Shown: positions 20,778 to 28,313 of the stretch, one piece after another
Layout: the number at the start of each line of letters is the position of its first letter
Position numbering within the stretch: position 1 is the stretch's first letter
Assembly (NCBI RefSeq): GCF_900343145.1
Contig: NZ_LT996886.1
Span: forward strand, 1,302,001-1,366,000
From: Tessaracoccus timonensis
Lineage (GTDB): Bacteria; Actinomycetota; Actinomycetes; Propionibacteriales; Propionibacteriaceae
Length of the DNA: 64,000 nt
Direction: 5' to 3'
The notes under the pieces: generated by a model
What the model was told of the DNA's origin: nothing
Database searches by the model: none
The model's input: only the letters and a program-made list of their open reading frames with translations
Made by a program: the position numbers and the translations under genes

Positions 20778-20829
20778 AAGATAGATCAAGTTCGTGGTGG
20801 GTAGACGAGCCACGAACTTGATCTATCTT
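20778..20829. repeat. Palindrome family A, copy 3
   Basis: Perfect 20-bp arms with spacer TGGGTAGACGAG, identical in orientation to the copy at 10760. It lies 44 bp upstream of galE, and its last base is the third base of the PIN-toxin stop codon, so it forms the immediate 3' end of the toxin message. Confidence 0.9.
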
Positions 20830-21263
20830 TACCGATCGGTGGGCTCGTGGCTGAGGTTGCGTCGAACGGGCCGCAGATCGAGCCCCTCGATGTGAGCGAA
20901 GTCGTCGGGGTTCGCAGTGTGAAGAGGAATTTGCTGCGAGATGGCAACCGCGGCGATCAGCGCGTCGTAGCCACGTGCTGCTGGCTTGCGGCCCGAGGCG
21001 CGCAGCGATGCAGCCACCATGCCGAAGGAGCGCGCAGCAGCGGCGTCGAAGGGGAGGGGCTCGAAGGTCGCCTCCGCCAGTTGCAGCACCTGCTGCCGGT
21101 GCGCCCGCTCTGTTGGGTCAGCGGCTACGAGCGGACCGACGGACAACTGGGCGAGCGTGATGGCGCTGATCAGCGGGACTTCCGGGAGATCGTCGGGTTC
21201 GACGTGAGCGAGGTCGATCACCAGATTCGTGTCGAGTAGCCCTGCTCCTTGGGGGACGGTCAC
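20829..21263 (-). CDS. PIN-domain (VapC-type) toxin
   Basis: 144 residues. The PIN nuclease acid cluster is visible as LLDTNLVIDL (first Asp near residue 10), the central ISAITLAQLSVGP (Glu replaced by Gln-containing ITLAQL), GYDALIAAVA (Asp near 99) and HTANPDDF near 115. VapC toxins cleave specific RNAs with Mg2+. GTG 21263 overlaps the antitoxin stop by four bases (GTGA), so the two are translationally coupled. The substitution at the second acidic position may lower activity. Confidence 0.82.
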   Translation of the reverse strand: MTVPQGAGLLDTNLVIDLAHVEPDDLPEVPLISAITLAQLSVGPLVAADPTERAHRQQVLQLAEATFEPLPFDAAAARSFGMVAASLRASGRKPAARGYDALIAAVAISQQIPLHTANPDDFAHIEGLDLRPVRRNLSHEPTDR

Positions 21264-21493
21264 AGCGACCAGTCCAGCATGTCGTCGACATCTCGCTGGA
21301 ACTGCTCGGCATCAATCGTCGGCAGGGCTGCCCAACGATGTAGCAACCGCTCTCGACGCAGCGGCGTCTTGCGCAGTGGAATGACCTGCGCCACAGGCTC
21401 ACCGTCTTTGGTGACCACGACGCTCTCGCCCTGCTGTACGCGTTTCAGCAGGGCGGCGCTGTTGTTGCGCAGCTCGCGAACCGGAACACTCAT
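21260..21493 (-). CDS. Phd/YefM-family antitoxin
   Basis: 77 residues. The N-terminal MSVPVRELRNNSAALLKRVQQGESVVVTKDGEPVAQVIPL is the standard Phd/YefM DNA-binding fold, and the C-terminal ~30 residues are the toxin-binding tail (FQRDVDDMLDWSL). It should neutralise the downstream PIN toxin and repress the pair at the palindrome just upstream of its ATG. Confidence 0.88.
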   Translation of the reverse strand: MSVPVRELRNNSAALLKRVQQGESVVVTKDGEPVAQVIPLRKTPLRRERLLHRWAALPTIDAEQFQRDVDDMLDWSL

Positions 21494-22152: not shown

Positions 22153-22274
22153 GGGTACCTCCTGGTGGCCACTGTAGGCGCACCAGAGGTGCATTCGACG
22201 GCGCTTCTGGCGGTTTCTGCATCAGCGGCCCAATCGGAGACACGCCGAAAGGCTGCGATGAACCCCTCCGCTGC

Positions 22275-22280
22275 AATACT
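22275..22280 (+). promoter_or_regulatory. Proposed -10 box giving a leaderless A1 message
   Basis: AATACT seven bases before GTG 22288. The same hexamer at the same distance precedes the paralogous gene at 25520, within a shared CCCCTCCGCTG-AATACTG block. If that block were coding it would use the rare Ile codon ATA in both copies, which is unlikely in this genome. No ribosome site precedes the GTG. Confidence 0.5.
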
Positions 22281-22287
22281 GCAGAGC

Positions 22288-23061
22288 GTGTCCACCGACT
22301 ACTTCGACGACGACTACGACCCGCTCGCACCCATGGTCGACGCTGCCCCCGCAGACGTCGACGAGCCGGCGCGCGTCGACGATGCGTCCGAGCGCTCAAG
22401 TTCGCAGCATCCCACCGGCGTCGAGATGATCGTCGACGATGCGCTGGATGAGGAAGGCGACGGCGGAATCGGGGGCGGCAACGGTATCGTTCGGATATGG
22501 GTGGAAGACGATGGGCGGATGTCGAAGGTGCGGGTGAGCCCCGTCTGGTTTCAGCGGCTCGGCCCTGGTCAAACCCTGGAGCAGGCATTCCACGAGGCGT
22601 TTGCCAAGGCCCGCATGCGCGTCGCGGAGCGAGGCACCGTCGAATCGACGTCGTTCGATGATGCTGACTTCGGCGAGATCCCGCCACTCACGCCGGAGAA
22701 CATCTCGCTCTACGTGCGAATGATGAACGACCACCGCAAACGCTGGCTCGCGTTGGTGGAGGAGTCCGTCAAGGAGCCCCCGGCGCCAGTGCCCACCTTT
22801 CGCGGGAAGTCGGCCGGTGTCGTCGTGACGCTCACGAATGCGGGATTCCCGAGCCGGGTGGAGTTCAACCAGAAGTGGCTCGACGACGCGCAGGTCGGGT
22901 CGATCTGCATCAACGTCAGCGCGGCAGCAACCAAGGCGTACGAGCAGTTTGAGCGGTACGTCCCCGAAACGAATGAACGTGACGAGGCAATGCGGACGAT
23001 GGAGGCGGAGCAGGAGTACATGATGGCCGGCTTCTACCGTATGTTCGACCCCAGAAGGTGA
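22288..23061 (+). CDS. A1: protein with two YbaB-like segments, first gene of triad 1
   Basis: 257 residues from GTG 22288; an ATG at 22258 would add ten. The N-terminus is acidic and disordered (VSTDYFDDDYDPLAP...). Two segments resemble the YbaB/EbfC fold (strand-turn-strand then W/F-containing helix): IVRIWVEDDGRMSKVRVSP-WF near residue 66 and SAGVVVTLTNAGFPSRVEF-KWL near 175. It ends EYMMAGFYRMFDPRR. A2 at 25520 is a paralog sharing VRVSP-WF--L-PGQTL-QAF-EAF, LDDAQVGSIC-type and MAGF-R----PRR blocks. YbaB-type proteins often accompany type-VII substrate genes in actinobacteria; here the assignment is by pattern only. The B1 gene starts three bases after the stop. Confidence 0.65.
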   Translation: MSTDYFDDDYDPLAPMVDAAPADVDEPARVDDASERSSSQHPTGVEMIVDDALDEEGDGGIGGGNGIVRIWVEDDGRMSKVRVSPVWFQRLGPGQTLEQAFHEAFAKARMRVAERGTVESTSFDDADFGEIPPLTPENISLYVRMMNDHRKRWLALVEESVKEPPAPVPTFRGKSAGVVVTLTNAGFPSRVEFNQKWLDDAQVGSICINVSAAATKAYEQFERYVPETNERDEAMRTMEAEQEYMMAGFYRMFDPRR

Positions 23062-23064
23062 GCG

Positions 23065-24426
23065 ATGACTGAACCGACAGACCAGGATAAAGAACTGCAG
23101 CAGCGGGCCACCGAGTCCGAGTTTTCGGGTATCTCTGCCGACTCGGACGATCTGCTCGACGATGGCGAGCTGCGCGAAGGACTCATTAACCCCAACGCGT
23201 CCGGTGGCAAGGGGAAGAATTCCGGGCCAGGCATGATGCCACCCATGATGATGGGTGGCGCCGGCGCAGGTTCTGGTGCCGGCGCGGGTGCCCAGAACGC
23301 CATGGGCGCCAATGCCATGGCTGCGGGCCAAGTGAACGCGGCGAACATGAACGCCATGGGTGCGCAGGGCGCGATGCGTAGTGCGGGTGGTGCACCCGGC
23401 GGACTCGGCACTGCTGGTACTGGCATGGGTCCGGGCGGCGGCACCCCCGGAGTGCTAGCGGCTGGCAGCGAGTCTCCGCTGGGTGACATCCCGTCGGACT
23501 GGAAGCCAGGCGACCCGATTCTCCCCGGCGATCCCCGCCACCCCGGCGGCGACCTCGGGGCGATCTTCCCCGGCGATCCCCGCTACGGCGACCTTGTCCC
23601 TGGTTGGTCCGAAGGCGCCTACGGTGATCCGTCGGATCCCAGCAGCTGGAACATCCCGACCGGCTACAACCCGAATGACCCGAGCACCTGGGGCGGTGTC
23701 GATAACGGTGTCGGTGGCGTGCTCCCCAGCGATGGTGGGCGGCACGGTTGGAGCTATGGCGATCCGATCATGCCCGGCGACCCACGCCACCCAGGCGGCA
23801 CCAGCCCGCTCTACCCCGGCGACCCGGGCTACGACCGGGCCGCATTGGGCGGTGTTCTCAGCCCCGACGGTTGGTCCGGCGGCAACCCGCCGCACGGAAC
23901 CAATATCCCGACCGCACCTGGAACTAGGCCAGGCGACGCCCGCGACAGTGTTGGCGGCGGACAAGGGCCCGCCGGCGGCATCAGCAACCCTGGCGTCGGT
24001 TCCGCTGGCGGCGGGAATATCCCAGGCGCCGGGCAGCCTAACCTCCCCACATCTACCCCTCCCTCGGGCACAGGATCTGGTGGAACTTCAGGAGGCGGCG
24101 GTGGAACGGGCTCCGGACCGCAGAGCGGCGCGCATACCAGCTACAGCGTCGATCAGGCTCAGCTGCGCGAATGGGCCAAAAAGTGGCAGGAAGCATCCGA
24201 CAAAACAGCCGCGTTGCAGAGCAAGATGCAACTGCCGCAAGATTTCGGATTCATCGCATCCGCGCTGCCAGCAACACACACACTGGGTGGTTCCGTCATC
24301 GACTGGTCAACCGGCGCGAGCAAGGAATTCAACCAGATCGGTGAAAGCCTCATAGCGGCTGCGGATAGGTACGAAGAACAAGAGGGCTTCGGCGTTCGTC
24401 AATCGAACCAGGTAAGGGGTCAGTGA
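23065..24426 (+). CDS. B1: Gly/Pro-rich protein with type-VII-target-like C-terminus
   Basis: 453 residues. Residues 1-45 (ELQQRATESEFSGI--DSDDLLDDGELREGLINPNA) are conserved in paralog B2. A PGMMPPMMMGG stretch at ~53-65 leads into a long Gly/Ala/Pro region. Residues ~150-260 carry imperfect PGDPRHPGG / PGDPRYGD repeats. The last ~95 residues (YSVDQAQLREWAKKW....AADRYEEQEG) are helical and look like EspC-type (DUF2580) secretion targets. There is no signal peptide. It overlaps the next gene by four bases (GTGA). The function is not known; a secreted or surface protein with a flexible body is inferred. Confidence 0.65.
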   Translation: MTEPTDQDKELQQRATESEFSGISADSDDLLDDGELREGLINPNASGGKGKNSGPGMMPPMMMGGAGAGSGAGAGAQNAMGANAMAAGQVNAANMNAMGAQGAMRSAGGAPGGLGTAGTGMGPGGGTPGVLAAGSESPLGDIPSDWKPGDPILPGDPRHPGGDLGAIFPGDPRYGDLVPGWSEGAYGDPSDPSSWNIPTGYNPNDPSTWGGVDNGVGGVLPSDGGRHGWSYGDPIMPGDPRHPGGTSPLYPGDPGYDRAALGGVLSPDGWSGGNPPHGTNIPTAPGTRPGDARDSVGGGQGPAGGISNPGVGSAGGGNIPGAGQPNLPTSTPPSGTGSGGTSGGGGGTGSGPQSGAHTSYSVDQAQLREWAKKWQEASDKTAALQSKMQLPQDFGFIASALPATHTLGGSVIDWSTGASKEFNQIGESLIAAADRYEEQEGFGVRQSNQVRGQ

Positions 24427-25397
24427 GCATGGTGGCAGCAGTCGGAACGGCAGTCGGAGCACGCAGGTTTCCTCCCTTGACACAAATGATGGCGAGCGCG
24501 AGCGCGACGTACGCCGACGATGCTTTCCTCGGCGAGCCGACGTCGTCGGAGCAAGACCAGGATTACAAGAATCTCCCCTCGAATGCGGAAGCGCTGCGCA
24601 CGAGCCTCGACACCGCAGTGCGGATGGATGAGCAGCAAGTCACCTCATTCTGGGAAGAGGTGAAGGAAGCATTCCAGCATGGAGTGAACTATTTCTCAGA
24701 TCGCGAGGCATTCAAGCAGCGTTGTCAAGCCATTGTTGACGACGCACACGAGCAGCTGAGAAAGGTGGAAGGTAGTGTCGCTCAGCTCAAGAAGTTTCTC
24801 GGCATCCCCGAGAGGCTGACCGGAGAGTTCCACGAGTGGAGTGCTCACGCACACGAATTGAAGGCCATCATCGACCCAATCCCCGACTACGGCCAGATTC
24901 CGAATTGGCACGGGCCGGCCAGCAACGAATACCTCACCATGACAGAGGTGCAGGTGCAGGCGTGTAATGAGCTGTTCCCGCGTGCGAAGAACATGGCTGA
25001 GACGCTCCACATCGCGGAGAGCTTGAACTACGGCGTGTTGTCGGGCGCGAACTCGAACATCCAGACCGCGCTGGGGCACATGCAGCAATGCGTTGTCGTT
25101 CCTGAGGGCCGGTTCTACGTGAACACGGCACGCTGCGGAGCGGTGCTCTCTCAGTTGGCAGGCTTGTTGGATGAGATTCTCAAGCTGGCTGACGCCCCGT
25201 CGGGTCAGCTGAAAGCACGATTGCAGGATGTCGAATCGTCGGCAAGCGTGCTGCGCTCTGGGTGGCCGAGTGGCTCCTCGCAGCAAGGACAGGAGGGTGT
25301 GCCGTCGCCGGAGATCGACGTGACGGCACCGCGGGTTCCTGCCAGGTCCAATCCTGATCCGACCACCGGTCCCGGAAGCCAAGGTACTGAGCGCTGA
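24423..25397 (+). CDS. C1: helical WxG-motif protein, third gene of triad 1
   Basis: 324 residues from GTG 24423; ATG 24429 is an alternative. It is predicted almost all helical. Near residue 160 it has NWHGPASNEYLTMTEVQVQACNELFP, a W-x-G turn followed by the A--Y pattern of WXG100-like helical hairpins. A further block reads S--VLRSGWPSGSSQQG near 285, followed by a disordered Pro-rich tail. C2 at 27023 shares W-GPA---Y--M--VQV-A--E and VLS-QWPSG. There are no membrane helices and no signal peptide. A type-VII-like substrate or chaperone is inferred, not shown. Confidence 0.62.
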   Translation: MSMVAAVGTAVGARRFPPLTQMMASASATYADDAFLGEPTSSEQDQDYKNLPSNAEALRTSLDTAVRMDEQQVTSFWEEVKEAFQHGVNYFSDREAFKQRCQAIVDDAHEQLRKVEGSVAQLKKFLGIPERLTGEFHEWSAHAHELKAIIDPIPDYGQIPNWHGPASNEYLTMTEVQVQACNELFPRAKNMAETLHIAESLNYGVLSGANSNIQTALGHMQQCVVVPEGRFYVNTARCGAVLSQLAGLLDEILKLADAPSGQLKARLQDVESSASVLRSGWPSGSSQQGQEGVPSPEIDVTAPRVPARSNPDPTTGPGSQGTER

Positions 25398-25408
25398 CCT
25401 TCACACTC

Positions 25409-25442
25409 ACGGTGGGGCTGCCCGACAGGGTGGCCCCACCGT
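25409..25442 (+). terminator. Hairpin between the two triads
   Basis: 10-bp perfect arms ACGGTGGGGC/GCCCCACCGT with a 14-nt loop, followed by TCGTGTTCTC. It lies 12 bases after the C1 stop. Without a clear T run it is a probable terminator, and it suggests that the two triads are separate transcripts. Confidence 0.55.
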
Positions 25443-25506
25443 CGTGTTCTCGCTGAACATGCCCAGATGGGTGCTCGTAACCCGTCGAAGTGATCCCCTC
25501 CGCTGG

Positions 25507-25512
25507 AATACT
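25507..25512 (+). promoter_or_regulatory. Proposed -10 box giving a leaderless A2 message
   Basis: AATACT seven bases before GTG 25520, in the same relative place as the box at 22275 and inside the same conserved block. The -35 region is not well conserved between the two copies. Confidence 0.5.
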
Positions 25513-25519
25513 GAACGGC

Positions 25520-26200
25520 GTGTCCGACGATCTGTTTGACGACGAGTACGACCCGCTCGCCCCACCACCTGGCGGGGAGTCTGACCTGCCGTTGGAAGAG
25601 GAGCTTGGCACCGGCGGTTTCGCGGGCGGCGGCGTCGTCAAACTGTGGTTCGAGCAGGGGCGGTTGAAGACGGTTCGCGTTTCCCCAACCTGGTTCGACA
25701 AGTTGGAGCCCGGGCAAACGCTGGCACAGGCCTTCGAAGAGGCGTTCTTGCTGTCGTCGGCTGCGATCGTCGAGGAAGAAGACGCGGCGCTCGACACGTC
25801 GGAGCTCATGCTCAACCTTCCTCCGCTGAGCGCTGCCGCCGTCGACGCATACGCCGCCATGCTGCATGACCACTCTGCAGCGTGGCAACGCGCCATCGAC
25901 GAGGCTGATCACCTCCCACCGAACCCGTCCGAGGCGACAGGGGAGCACACCGGGGCAGTGGTGATGCTGAACCGGGCAGGGCATCCGGCACGAGTGATGT
26001 TCGATGAGGAGTGGCTCGACGAGGCGCAGGTCGGCTCGATCTGCAGCGCCGTGTACGGGGCCACGATGAAGGCCTACCAGGCGTTCGTCCCCACCACAGA
26101 CCACAAACAGCGAGAACTCGACCGCTTCCGCCTCGAACACGAGGTGCTGATGGCGGGATTCCGACGGCTACTCATCCCACGACGTGAGGAGCAAGCATGA
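25520..26200 (+). CDS. A2: paralog of A1 with two YbaB-like segments
   Basis: 226 residues from GTG 25520; GTG 25490 would add ten. It is shorter than A1 because the acidic linker is reduced (VSDDLFDDEYDPLAPPPGGES). The first YbaB-like segment is VVKLWFEQGRLKTVRVSPTWFDKLEPGQTL near residue 35, given here in two parts (VVKLWFEQGRLKTVRVSP and TWFDKLEPGQTL). The second is GAVVMLNRAGHPARVMF-EEWLDEAQVGSIC near 140. It ends VLMAGFRRLLIPRREEQA. The last four bases overlap the B2 start (ATGA). The role is unknown; it pairs with B2 and C2 as A1 does with B1 and C1. Confidence 0.65.
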   Translation: MSDDLFDDEYDPLAPPPGGESDLPLEEELGTGGFAGGGVVKLWFEQGRLKTVRVSPTWFDKLEPGQTLAQAFEEAFLLSSAAIVEEEDAALDTSELMLNLPPLSAAAVDAYAAMLHDHSAAWQRAIDEADHLPPNPSEATGEHTGAVVMLNRAGHPARVMFDEEWLDEAQVGSICSAVYGATMKAYQAFVPTTDHKQRELDRFRLEHEVLMAGFRRLLIPRREEQA

Positions 26201-27021
26201 GCGAACTGAATGAAATCTGGAGGGAGCTCGCCCGGCGCGCATCCGAGTCGAAGTTCAGCGGCGTCGCAGCAGAAAGCGACGACCTGCTCGGCTCTGCGGA
26301 GCTGCGCGAGGGCTTGCTGAGCCCGAACGCGGCAGGCGGGCCGAACGCGATGGGCGGCGGCCCCGGCATGATGCCTCCGATGATGATGGGCGGCATGGGT
26401 GGCAGCGGCGGCGGAAACGGCTCTCGTGGAGGCGGTGGCCTTGGCGGGTCGACGGGATCCGCTCCGGCTGGCGGTGCGCCGTCGAACTACGCGCCCCGGC
26501 AAGCGGGAACGCTCACGTCGGCGAAGGAGATCAAGCCCGAGAACGCCGGCGACGCGATGCCCGGCGGGGGCGCGCCCGGTGGCGGGATGCCGGCTGGCGG
26601 GCCCATGGCCGCAGGCGACGACACCATGCCTGAGGGCGGGGGTGGCGTCGATGATGAGGCGGCTGAGCAGGCTGAGCCCGAGTCGTCGTTCGTGCCCCAT
26701 GCCCCCACGGGGGAGGGCGACGAGGTCAACCGCGACGGGTTCACCGTCGAGCATGGAACGATGTCGGAGGTGGCTGAGTTGTGGTCGCAGATGTCGGACG
26801 CCTACGGGCACGCGTCGTCGCGAATGCCTGCACCTGTGAGCCTCGGGTTTGCGGAGAAGGCCAAGGTATCCACCGACGGTCTCGCGTCAGCCGCTGAGCG
26901 GTGGGGGCACGAGGCGGCGCAGGAGTTCCTCACCATCAGCCACTCGATGGTGAGCTCGGTGCGCGCCTACGAGGAGTCCGAAGACGTGGCCGTTACCGCG
27001 GTCGGCAAGCAGGAAGGCTGA
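26197..27021 (+). CDS. B2: paralog of B1, shorter Gly-rich protein
   Basis: 274 residues. The N-terminal ELARRASESKFSGVAAESDD / LLGSAELREGLLSPNAAGG block and PGMMPPMMMGGMGG mirror B1. The middle is Gly/Ala/Pro-rich but lacks the PGDPRHPGG repeats. The C-terminal ~85 residues (VEHGTMSEVAELWSQMSDAY ... VSSVRAYEESEDVAV) form a helical target-like domain. It starts inside the A2 stop and is followed after one base by C2. The PMMMGG-type stretch recalls Gly/Met-rich linkers of actinobacterial type-VII-associated proteins. Confidence 0.63.
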   Translation: MSELNEIWRELARRASESKFSGVAAESDDLLGSAELREGLLSPNAAGGPNAMGGGPGMMPPMMMGGMGGSGGGNGSRGGGGLGGSTGSAPAGGAPSNYAPRQAGTLTSAKEIKPENAGDAMPGGGAPGGGMPAGGPMAAGDDTMPEGGGGVDDEAAEQAEPESSFVPHAPTGEGDEVNRDGFTVEHGTMSEVAELWSQMSDAYGHASSRMPAPVSLGFAEKAKVSTDGLASAAERWGHEAAQEFLTISHSMVSSVRAYEESEDVAVTAVGKQEG

Positions 27022-27022
27022 C

Positions 27023-28204
27023 ATGACTGCACTACAACTCTCCGGAGCCGTGGCGACGAAGACTGGCGTGGGGTGCCCGACGGCAGGGGTCGCTGACGCA
27101 GCCGAACAAGCGGACACCGAGACCATGCAGCAGGCCGTGGAGCAGTACGCCGATGGGCTTGAAGAGACGCTTGACGGCTACATGCAGCGGGTGAGCGTGG
27201 GAGATGCGTCGCTGCAGACGCGCGAGTATCGGCAGATGATGAACGTCGTCGAACAGCTCGAAGCGGCGCTTGAAGAAGCTGTGGCAGCCGATCACCGCGA
27301 CTTCGATGAGTTCTTTACGGTGCTGCAGGCATTGATGGGAGATATGCGCTCGTTCCTGCCCGAGCAGCGACTCTTCACGCAGCTCTCCGACGACATCGTG
27401 CAGAGCGCTCGAGCCGCGCTGGCCGAGGTGCGCCGTCGCATCGAGGACGACGTCACCATCCACATGGATGTGCCTGAGGAGGTGAAGGAGACGGCGCAGG
27501 TGTGGTCGGAGACCGCCGACGTGGTGGAGCAGGTAGCGCCCACACTGTCTAAGCTCACGCGTGTGAACGGGTGGAGCGGCCCCGCGGCCATGACCTACCG
27601 CCAGATGGCCGACGTGCAGGTGGCGGCAAACGAGGAGTTTCAGTATCTGCCGCGCGCCATGGCAGATGCGTACGACGTCATCAGCACGCTGAATCGGGCA
27701 GTGCTCATCGCCGTGCACGATGCGCTGCGCACCACGCTGCAGCAGGCCACCTCCACACAGCCGGGCTTCCCTGGGCAGCTGTTTCGTCGGGTGCAGCAAT
27801 TCGAGCGCGCCATTGAACGCTGCAACACTGAGTTGCTGACCGAGGCGCTCGATATCTCCGCTGAAGGCACCGACCACGTCGCCGGATTCGTCGACGACAT
27901 CCGCTCCGCCACTGCTGTGCTTAGCGACCAGTGGCCCTCGGGGACGAGCAAGTCCGGCCTGCAACCTGGTGATACGGCGAGGCAGCTCGTCGGTTGGCTC
28001 TCCTCCGACGTGGCTCCCGTCGCCCGCCGCGCCGAGACGCAGGACGGCGAAGCCTCCGAACCTGGCGCTGGCGAGGCTGACGACCAGGGTGAGGCGCGGA
28101 CGGGCCAAGCGCAACAGGGCCCTAGTACAGATCGTCGCGAGATGCGTACTGACGTGCCTCGCCGCGGAATGTTCAACACCACCGAGCATCGCGTTCGCTT
28201 CTGA
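27023..28204 (+). CDS. C2: paralog of C1, helical WxG-motif protein
   Basis: 393 residues, predominantly helical. Long amphipathic helices at ~28-150 precede GWSGPAAMTYRQMADVQVAANEEF near residue 186, the W-x-G-P-A---Y motif shared with C1. VLSDQWPSGTSKSG is near 306, followed by a disordered acidic/Gln-rich tail ending TTEHRVRF. There is no signal peptide or membrane segment. It is the last gene of triad 2; palindrome D copy 1 begins 28 bp after its stop and may terminate the transcript. Confidence 0.62.
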   Translation: MTALQLSGAVATKTGVGCPTAGVADAAEQADTETMQQAVEQYADGLEETLDGYMQRVSVGDASLQTREYRQMMNVVEQLEAALEEAVAADHRDFDEFFTVLQALMGDMRSFLPEQRLFTQLSDDIVQSARAALAEVRRRIEDDVTIHMDVPEEVKETAQVWSETADVVEQVAPTLSKLTRVNGWSGPAAMTYRQMADVQVAANEEFQYLPRAMADAYDVISTLNRAVLIAVHDALRTTLQQATSTQPGFPGQLFRRVQQFERAIERCNTELLTEALDISAEGTDHVAGFVDDIRSATAVLSDQWPSGTSKSGLQPGDTARQLVGWLSSDVAPVARRAETQDGEASEPGAGEADDQGEARTGQAQQGPSTDRREMRTDVPRRGMFNTTEHRVRF

Positions 28205-28231: not shown

Positions 28232-28313
28232 AAACTGCAAAACTCGCCACTAGTCGCGTCGCTTCTCGCTCAATCACGCATGAGGCGTGCGACTGTTGGC
28301 GAGTTTTGCAGTT
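28232..28313. repeat. Palindrome family D, copy 1
   Basis: Arms start AACTGCAAAACTCGCCA (left) and its complement (right), with a ~30-nt centre containing CTCGCTCAATCACGCATGAGG. A two-base difference interrupts the left arm. Followed by CTTCTTCGGGAGC, which is also found after copy 2. It lies between triad 2 and the GntP gene. Confidence 0.92.

Follow-up and report, generated by a model that had tools for sequence, protein, structure and literature searches.

Organization of the two triads

The window analyzed here comprises bases 1,302,001-1,366,000 (64,000 nucleotides) of the 2.759 Mb single-contig genome of Tessaracoccus timonensis, and it holds two consecutive sets of three forward-strand genes, A1-B1-C1 (T1) and A2-B2-C2 (T2), which we consider as candidate substrate modules of a type VII secretion system. 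In T1, A1 (22288..23061) is separated by a gap of 3 nucleotides (nt) from B1 (23065..24426), which in turn overlaps C1 (24423..25397) by 4 nt. In T2, A2 (25520..26200) overlaps B2 (26197..27021) by 4 nt, with a gap of 1 nt before C2 (27023..28204). With A2 starting at 25520, the spacing between C1 and A2 is 122 nt; the GTG starts of A1 and A2 are our own choice, based on a conserved upstream element described below. The A proteins are acidic, with isoelectric points (pI) of 4.4-4.5 (4.5 for A1). B1 is Gly/Pro-rich and B2 is a shorter relative, and both carry the block PGMMPPMMMGG (23227-23259 and 26362-26394). C1 and C2, of 324 and 393 amino acids (aa), are helical proteins with a W-x-G motif (WHG at 24906-24914 and WSG at 27572-27580) and a disordered tail.

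The original prediction, which posited two paralogous triads of the same order with near-touching junctions, is borne out by the open reading frames (ORFs), the junctions and shuffle-controlled alignment scores, and the conserved blocks that it quoted for A, B and C are all present in the translations. The local scores for A1/A2, B1/B2 and C1/C2 are 425, 265 and 204, against maxima of 55, 115 and 61 among 200 shuffles each, and phmmer E-values within the small ORF set are 4.5e-52, 4.6e-27 and 6.5e-19; the paralogy of T1 and T2 is thus far above chance. That the unit was duplicated holds in the sense of paralogy, but apparently not in that of a recent tandem copy. C1 and C2 are only 21% identical, whereas C2 shares 33% identity with the C protein of the congeneric genome G008 and C1 30-31% with those of G027 and G016; similarly, neither B1 nor B2 is among the other's five nearest relatives. 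A1 and A2 are 41% identical and rank mutually as second and fifth nearest. A fresh tandem origin of T1 and T2 thus looks unlikely, and they belong to an older family with five triads in this genome. The other three are T3 (~1.4998-1.5026 Mb), with the order B-C-A, T4 (~0.5308-0.5337 Mb) and the divergent T5 (~2.6227-2.6258 Mb), which was first detected via its A.

Sequence and structure features of the A, B and C proteins

A1 matched the Pfam YbaB/EbfC profile (PF02575) with an E-value of 0.001 and 19.6-19.9 bits, under the curated cut-off of 25.5, and the NCBIfam YbaB model matched its second half (E 0.013). A2 had no YbaB match of its own in the Pfam scan and is assigned by its homology to A1, its predicted model and a Foldseek search: the model displays two beta-beta-beta-alpha units, and it recovers YbaB structures at ranks 3-6, 8 and 10 with probabilities of 0.96-0.99. 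Across A relatives, 18 of 25 matched YbaB at E-values up to 0.1 (best 2.9e-6). A thus appears to consist of two YbaB-like halves.

The EspC profile (PF10824, cut-off 23.5 bits) matched neither B1 nor B2 in the Pfam scan and nothing in the whole genome at E <= 0.001; it matched 9 of 28 B relatives at E-values up to 0.1 (best 0.0032), and in the six matching rows displayed the match is C-terminal. A profile search of the PDB with B returned a single match, to the ESAT-6-like protein 3ogi_B (E 0.48). A YxxxD/E motif lies 15-21 residues before the end of B in 25 of 28 valid rows (29 rows after exclusion of G108a, the motif being missing in G016_a, G024 and G028_b), as opposed to 8% of shuffles. 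B1 and B2 both carry this C-terminal export motif, as YEEQE (24370-24384) and YEESE (26968-26982), and the PGMMPPMMMGG block shows strong conservation, its PPMM being invariant in 28 of 28 aligned rows. A 603-aa frame from genome G015 (locus L086), considered as a fusion of B and C, was rejected: we take it for a frameshift because the end of B enters an arginine-rich stretch and the B domain continues with another piece in a different frame (L086:7832-8056).

C2 matched the EspA_EspE profile (PF18879) over residues 160-215 with an E-value of 0.023 and 15.6 bits, short of the cut-off of 27, and C1 showed no such match in the Pfam scan; among C relatives, 12 of 30 matched at E-values up to 0.1 (best 1.9e-4). 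The WxG motif is present in 24 of 25 C rows. The C proteins are nonetheless distinct from the WXG100 family (PF06013), whose members have ~100 residues and whose cut-off is 27.3 bits, since C1 scores 12.1 bits (E 0.25) and both are several times longer. In the predicted model of C1, with a predicted local distance difference test score (pLDDT) of 72, helices flank the WxG turn. A Foldseek search with this model singled out no family, and a PDB profile search with C returned mainly coiled coils, the sole type VII chain being 4i0x_B (E 0.0013).

No window protein scored over the curated family cut-offs, and likewise none of the six triad proteins did so in NCBIfam. The proposal that A is YbaB-like, that B ends in an EspC-like region and that C carries a W-x-G motif has nevertheless gained sub-threshold family matches and motif counts. 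Weak as they are singly, the YbaB, EspC and EspA_EspE leads converge on one known mycobacterial set, namely EspA/EspC/EspD and its counterpart EspE/EspF/EspH. Excerpts of the work on these ESX-1 proteins report that EspH binds EspE and is required for the secretion of EspE and EspF, that EspD stabilises EspA and EspC, and that EspH and EspD are YbaB-like chaperone candidates for these respective pairs; the YxxxD/E motif is on EspC and EspF, and the WxG motif on EspA and EspE (PMC6107294). EspL is described, again in excerpt, as a further YbaB-like ESX-1 protein (PMC6319747).

Type VII secretion machinery in the genome

The genome encodes an EccC protein in a 1354-aa frame at 1,239,774, which scores 799 bits, over the cut-off, with TIGR03924. 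On the same chromosome EccB, EccE, EccD (with a YukD domain), EccC, a subtilase and two WXG100 proteins score over the Pfam cut-offs, and the subtilase, which starts at the end of EccC, is placed as the mycosin. These genes form two blocks (~1.2146-1.2207 and ~1.2398-1.245 Mb); T1, the first triad, lies 79 to 110 kb downstream of them. The description of the triads as lacking machinery therefore holds for the window, which contains no Ecc or mycosin gene, but is an effect of its boundaries. Conversely, the suggestion that the triads use a secretion system encoded elsewhere is strengthened: the genome search for a type VII ATPase found one, the machinery expected alongside type VIIa substrates is present in the same genome, and the triads track one EccC clade across the genus (see below). 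There is no need to invoke a separate, undescribed surface system as an alternative. The distance has a parallel in Mycobacterium tuberculosis, where espACD lies >260 kb from its machine according to the excerpted account (PMC6107294).

A small A-like gene (10.8 bits with the A model) lies upstream of EccC together with genes for a 404-aa protein and a lipoprotein-like protein (L035:11965-14628, genome ~1.237-1.240 Mb). None of the three was matched in the other EccC loci compared; the trio may be a distantly related triad that adjoins the machinery. Elsewhere, small proteins with YxxxE-like ends adjoin WXG-type proteins at three loci, L186:5019-8538 (genome ~1.805-1.809 Mb), L187:3925-6673 and L189:5885-8879, which are candidate type VII cargo loci; the first has two YbaB-like genes by eye.

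Association with one EccC clade and joint divergence

With C2 as the query, 16 of the 36 genomes searched within the genus were positive, as opposed to none of 24 from elsewhere in the order. As first searched, one EccC clade was found in 15 of the 16 triad genomes and over cut-off in none of the 20 others. G007, negative in the first C2 search, has a triad broken into frames and pieces of an EccC that is 79-85% identical to that of T. timonensis, the three longest being 89-91% identical to the G028 EccC versus 26-67% to other clades. Counting it as positive, a reassignment made only after the association was seen, gives 16 of 17 against 0 of 19, and we hence provide both counts. G035 has a triad but neither an EccC nor an FtsK match, its assembly being 85% complete and in 560 contigs. 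In a tree of 31 EccC proteins (limited to sequences that exceed or approach the family cut-off, with a single representative for each locus retrieved and weaker EccC-like matches left out), a branch with full support separates the EccC of the 15 triad genomes from the remainder, namely 14 EccC proteins from eight genomes of the genus that are triad-negative and two from other families. The A model matched all 16 C-positive genomes at an E-value of 6.5e-60 or better; in the remaining 20 of the genus, A matches were limited to fragments in G007 and to G017 (E 1.4e-5).

A rpoB tree of 31 rows (including one outgroup; G005, G007, G012, G013, G029 and G035 are missing) requires five changes of the triad label, at least four of them forced by supported branches, with the sister pairs G024/G032 and G031/G014 differing in label. 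The lack of both triad and EccC in G014 may be an assembly gap, as the FtsK match is missing there too, a weakness from which the G024/G032 pair is free. These label changes indicate that plain descent does not explain the whole association, although shared ancestry explains part of it. In G010, a B-C pair is located between EccB and the WXG100 pair, within the ESX core locus. In G002, the EccC model matches at the FtsK level only and partial C remnants have been kept. These remnants (L170:7209-9467) consist of the same C-terminal stretch twice, with a copy of a fourth gene, D (see below), in between; no EccC of G002 exceeds the cut-off.

Across 25 triads, the pairwise distances of the A, B and C proteins correlate with each other (r of 0.68, 0.69 and 0.68), while reassignment of partners within genomes yields a mean r of 0.42-0.47 and reached the observed values in 15, 1 and 5 of 5000 trials. 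A, B and C thus diverge together as one unit. This set omits L044, L053 and L088 (lone C), L089 (no adjoining A), L082 (a near-copy of L083) and L086. L084 enters without its first set and L050 and L051 each without their second, and every triad used comes from the 27 tabulated C-bearing loci, in 23 of which A, B and C occur together. A comes first in many triads and last in T3 and in the G016 and G031 loci.

Beyond the genus, where reach was judged from a search scoring seven candidates per genome, a match to the C alignment was obtained in 32 out of 293 genomes from the order: 17 from the same genus, 11 from other genera of the family and four from another family, with matches better than 1e-40 confined to the genus. 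At nine loci (L171-L175, L179-L182) fetched from seven genomes that lie outside the genus, A accompanies C in eight and B in seven, some of the stretches ending at contig edges. Within the genus, a 9-row subset of B yielded 36 candidate stretches and six loci, one with a broken triad (L098), in T. oleiagri, T. rhinocerotis, T. coleopterorum, Propionibacteriaceae bacterium P6A17 and a Propionibacterium sp. metagenome-assembled genome.

Contextual features: an upstream element and a fourth gene

A promoter-like element precedes both A genes on the forward strand, as TGCAATACT-N7-GTG before A1 (22272..22290) and TGGAATACT-N7-GTG before A2 (25504..25522). It is conserved upstream of many A genes with the consensus TGSMATACT followed by 7 nt and GTG or ATG. 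The exact pattern occurs three times in the genome, always at A genes (T1, T2 and T4), versus once for the reversed control; in 35 other genomes of the genus there are 27 matches, eight of them at an A gene, versus six for the control. A sigma-70 scan reported 0 promoters. The element is probably a general extended -10 with a leaderless start that is over-represented at triads, and it points to separate transcription units for T1 and T2. Between C1 and A2 we read directly a perfect 8-bp inverted repeat (25411..25440, forward strand), which has no T run and is absent from the terminator list.

A model of the fourth gene, D, matches 19 of the 27 loci, in 18 of which D adjoins C, often in tandem copies; the seeds came from 10 of those 19 loci, and the model was built on 15 of 16 proteins, that of L045 being omitted as it matched no other. 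D proteins have a lipoprotein-like or single-helix N-terminus, a linker rich in Pro and Ser, and a domain in which two cysteines are nearly invariant. In T. timonensis a D gene is found beside T4 at L038:8699-10767 (genome ~528.7-530.8 kb), and others are at L040, L041, L043, L046-L053, L082, L083, L085, L087-L089 and L091; D is absent beside T1, T2 and T3. D matches above 80 bits are confined to C-positive genomes (12 of 16, against 0 of the 44 others searched). Weaker matches turn up widely, in 59 of 60 genomes at E <= 0.001, many of them covering no more than the N-terminus.

Flanking the triads, a 15-bp inverted repeat (28235-28311) between C2 and a convergent gene, by eye for a GntP-type permease, is perhaps a two-way terminator, and two small overlapping genes on the reverse strand (20829-21493) resemble by eye a PIN-type toxin and a Phd/YefM-type antitoxin.

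Functional predictions and alternative explanations

Based on these observations we consider it likely that the triads are Esp-type substrate modules serving an ESX-like (type VIIa) system, each comprising a double-YbaB chaperone and a B-C export pair. Under this proposal, A would act in the cytosol as the dedicated chaperone of the pair, and B and C may form a helical heterodimer to which C contributes the WxG turn and B the helical end with its YxxxE. By analogy to mycobacterial EspH with EspE/EspF and EspD with EspA/EspC, the EccC of the chromosome would recognise this end and export the pair along with the Gly/Pro-rich arm of B and the disordered tail of C, with A remaining behind in the cell. 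We infer, then, that B and C are exported. Outside, the pair would probably be held at the surface as an accessory or envelope-conditioning factor, in many relatives alongside the membrane-anchored, two-cysteine D protein; this is our guess. The five triads might represent parallel cargo sets for one machine.

If instead the triads served antibacterial toxin delivery, C would be toxic or a carrier moving via type VII secretion, A and B would be targeting factors and the D proteins would confer immunity. Immunity genes can occur in tandem copies, as the D genes beside C frequently do, and the C1 model weakly matches a chain of the TelA-LXG/LapA complex (8gmh_C, Foldseek rank 28, E 0.17). We regard this as improbable: T1, T2 and T3 have no adjoining D, and a Pfam scan of 30 C proteins found no toxin domain. 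Of four long C-like frames inspected by eye for toxin tails (L166, L167, L169 and L173), three have tails that are Pro-rich or acidic and of low complexity, and that of L173 owes its length to an upstream frame. LXG toxin systems, which have Lap partners, do share with the triads an operon of helical type VII partners; they differ in that the triads come with type VIIa machinery (EccB, EccE, mycosin) and a YbaB-like third protein, and in that no toxin domain turned up in the C proteins scanned. It is about equally hard to credit that A regulates its own operon as a DNA-binding protein of the YbaB type rather than serving as a chaperone, in which case B and C may still be exported. YbaB is described, in the literature excerpts, as DNA-binding, and A leads many triads; yet the protein is acidic, diverges in step with B and C, and sits last in T3 and in the G016 and G031 loci. 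Moreover, in M. marinum loss of EspH, which binds EspE, left the espE and espF transcripts unchanged, according to the same excerpts (PMC6107294).

The most sceptical explanation, that the triads encode cytoplasmic or otherwise unrelated helical proteins whose resemblance to the Esp and YbaB families is a coincidence of low complexity or coiled coils, draws on two points that weigh against our proposal, namely that the family matches are under their cut-offs and that helical models resemble many unrelated proteins. Such coincidence would leave unaccounted the position-specific YxxxD/E and WxG motifs, the association with one EccC clade that persists despite repeated gain or loss, and the placement of the G010 B-C pair in an ESX core locus, and we judge it very improbable, slightly more so than the toxin or regulator scenarios.

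Relationship to known systems and implications

The triads share with the ESX-1 sets EspE-EspF-EspH and EspA-EspC-EspD the combination of a YbaB-like chaperone candidate, a YxxxD/E partner and a WxG partner, as well as substrate genes that may sit far from the machinery (PMC6107294, in excerpt, as for the comparisons that follow). They differ in that A has two YbaB-like halves as against one predicted region (65-135) in EspH, in the longer B with its Gly/Pro-rich arm and PGMMPPMMMGG block, in the five copies present here and in family matches that stay below cut-off. EspB of ESX-1 likewise has WxG and YxxxD/E in a four-helix arrangement, but in one chain, whereas here they are split over C and B (PMC6107294). 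The PE/PPE-EspG system differs as A resembles YbaB and no PE/PPE fold match stands out (PMC6107294); EspG itself turned up in none of the searches made.

In the part of the open-access literature that was visible (with most subscription journals and all preprints outside it), searches combining Tessaracoccus with secretion system, or Propionibacteriaceae with type VII secretion, led to other topics, while YbaB with type VII secretion led among others to the mycobacterial work (PMC6107294, PMC6319747), which in the excerpted text describes EspH-like proteins as unique to ESX-1 (PMC6107294). Against this background we tentatively raise the possibility, which we hold to be somewhat doubtful, that the Esp-type arrangement is not a mycobacterial invention. 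It would then be a family-wide module in Propionibacteriaceae with a fused-YbaB-dimer chaperone, present in five sets here, tied to one EccC clade and often accompanied by a D protein that receives or anchors the pair at the surface. In bacteria that lack a mycomembrane, the module would thus be related to the ESX-1 virulence substrates or have arisen in parallel with them.

The extracellular role of Esp proteins is studied mostly in pathogens. A multi-copy relative in a Tessaracoccus-type bacterium, linked to a single EccC clade, would allow testing both of how a YbaB-like chaperone hands over a YxxxE/WxG pair to EccC and of how EccC types select their cargo.

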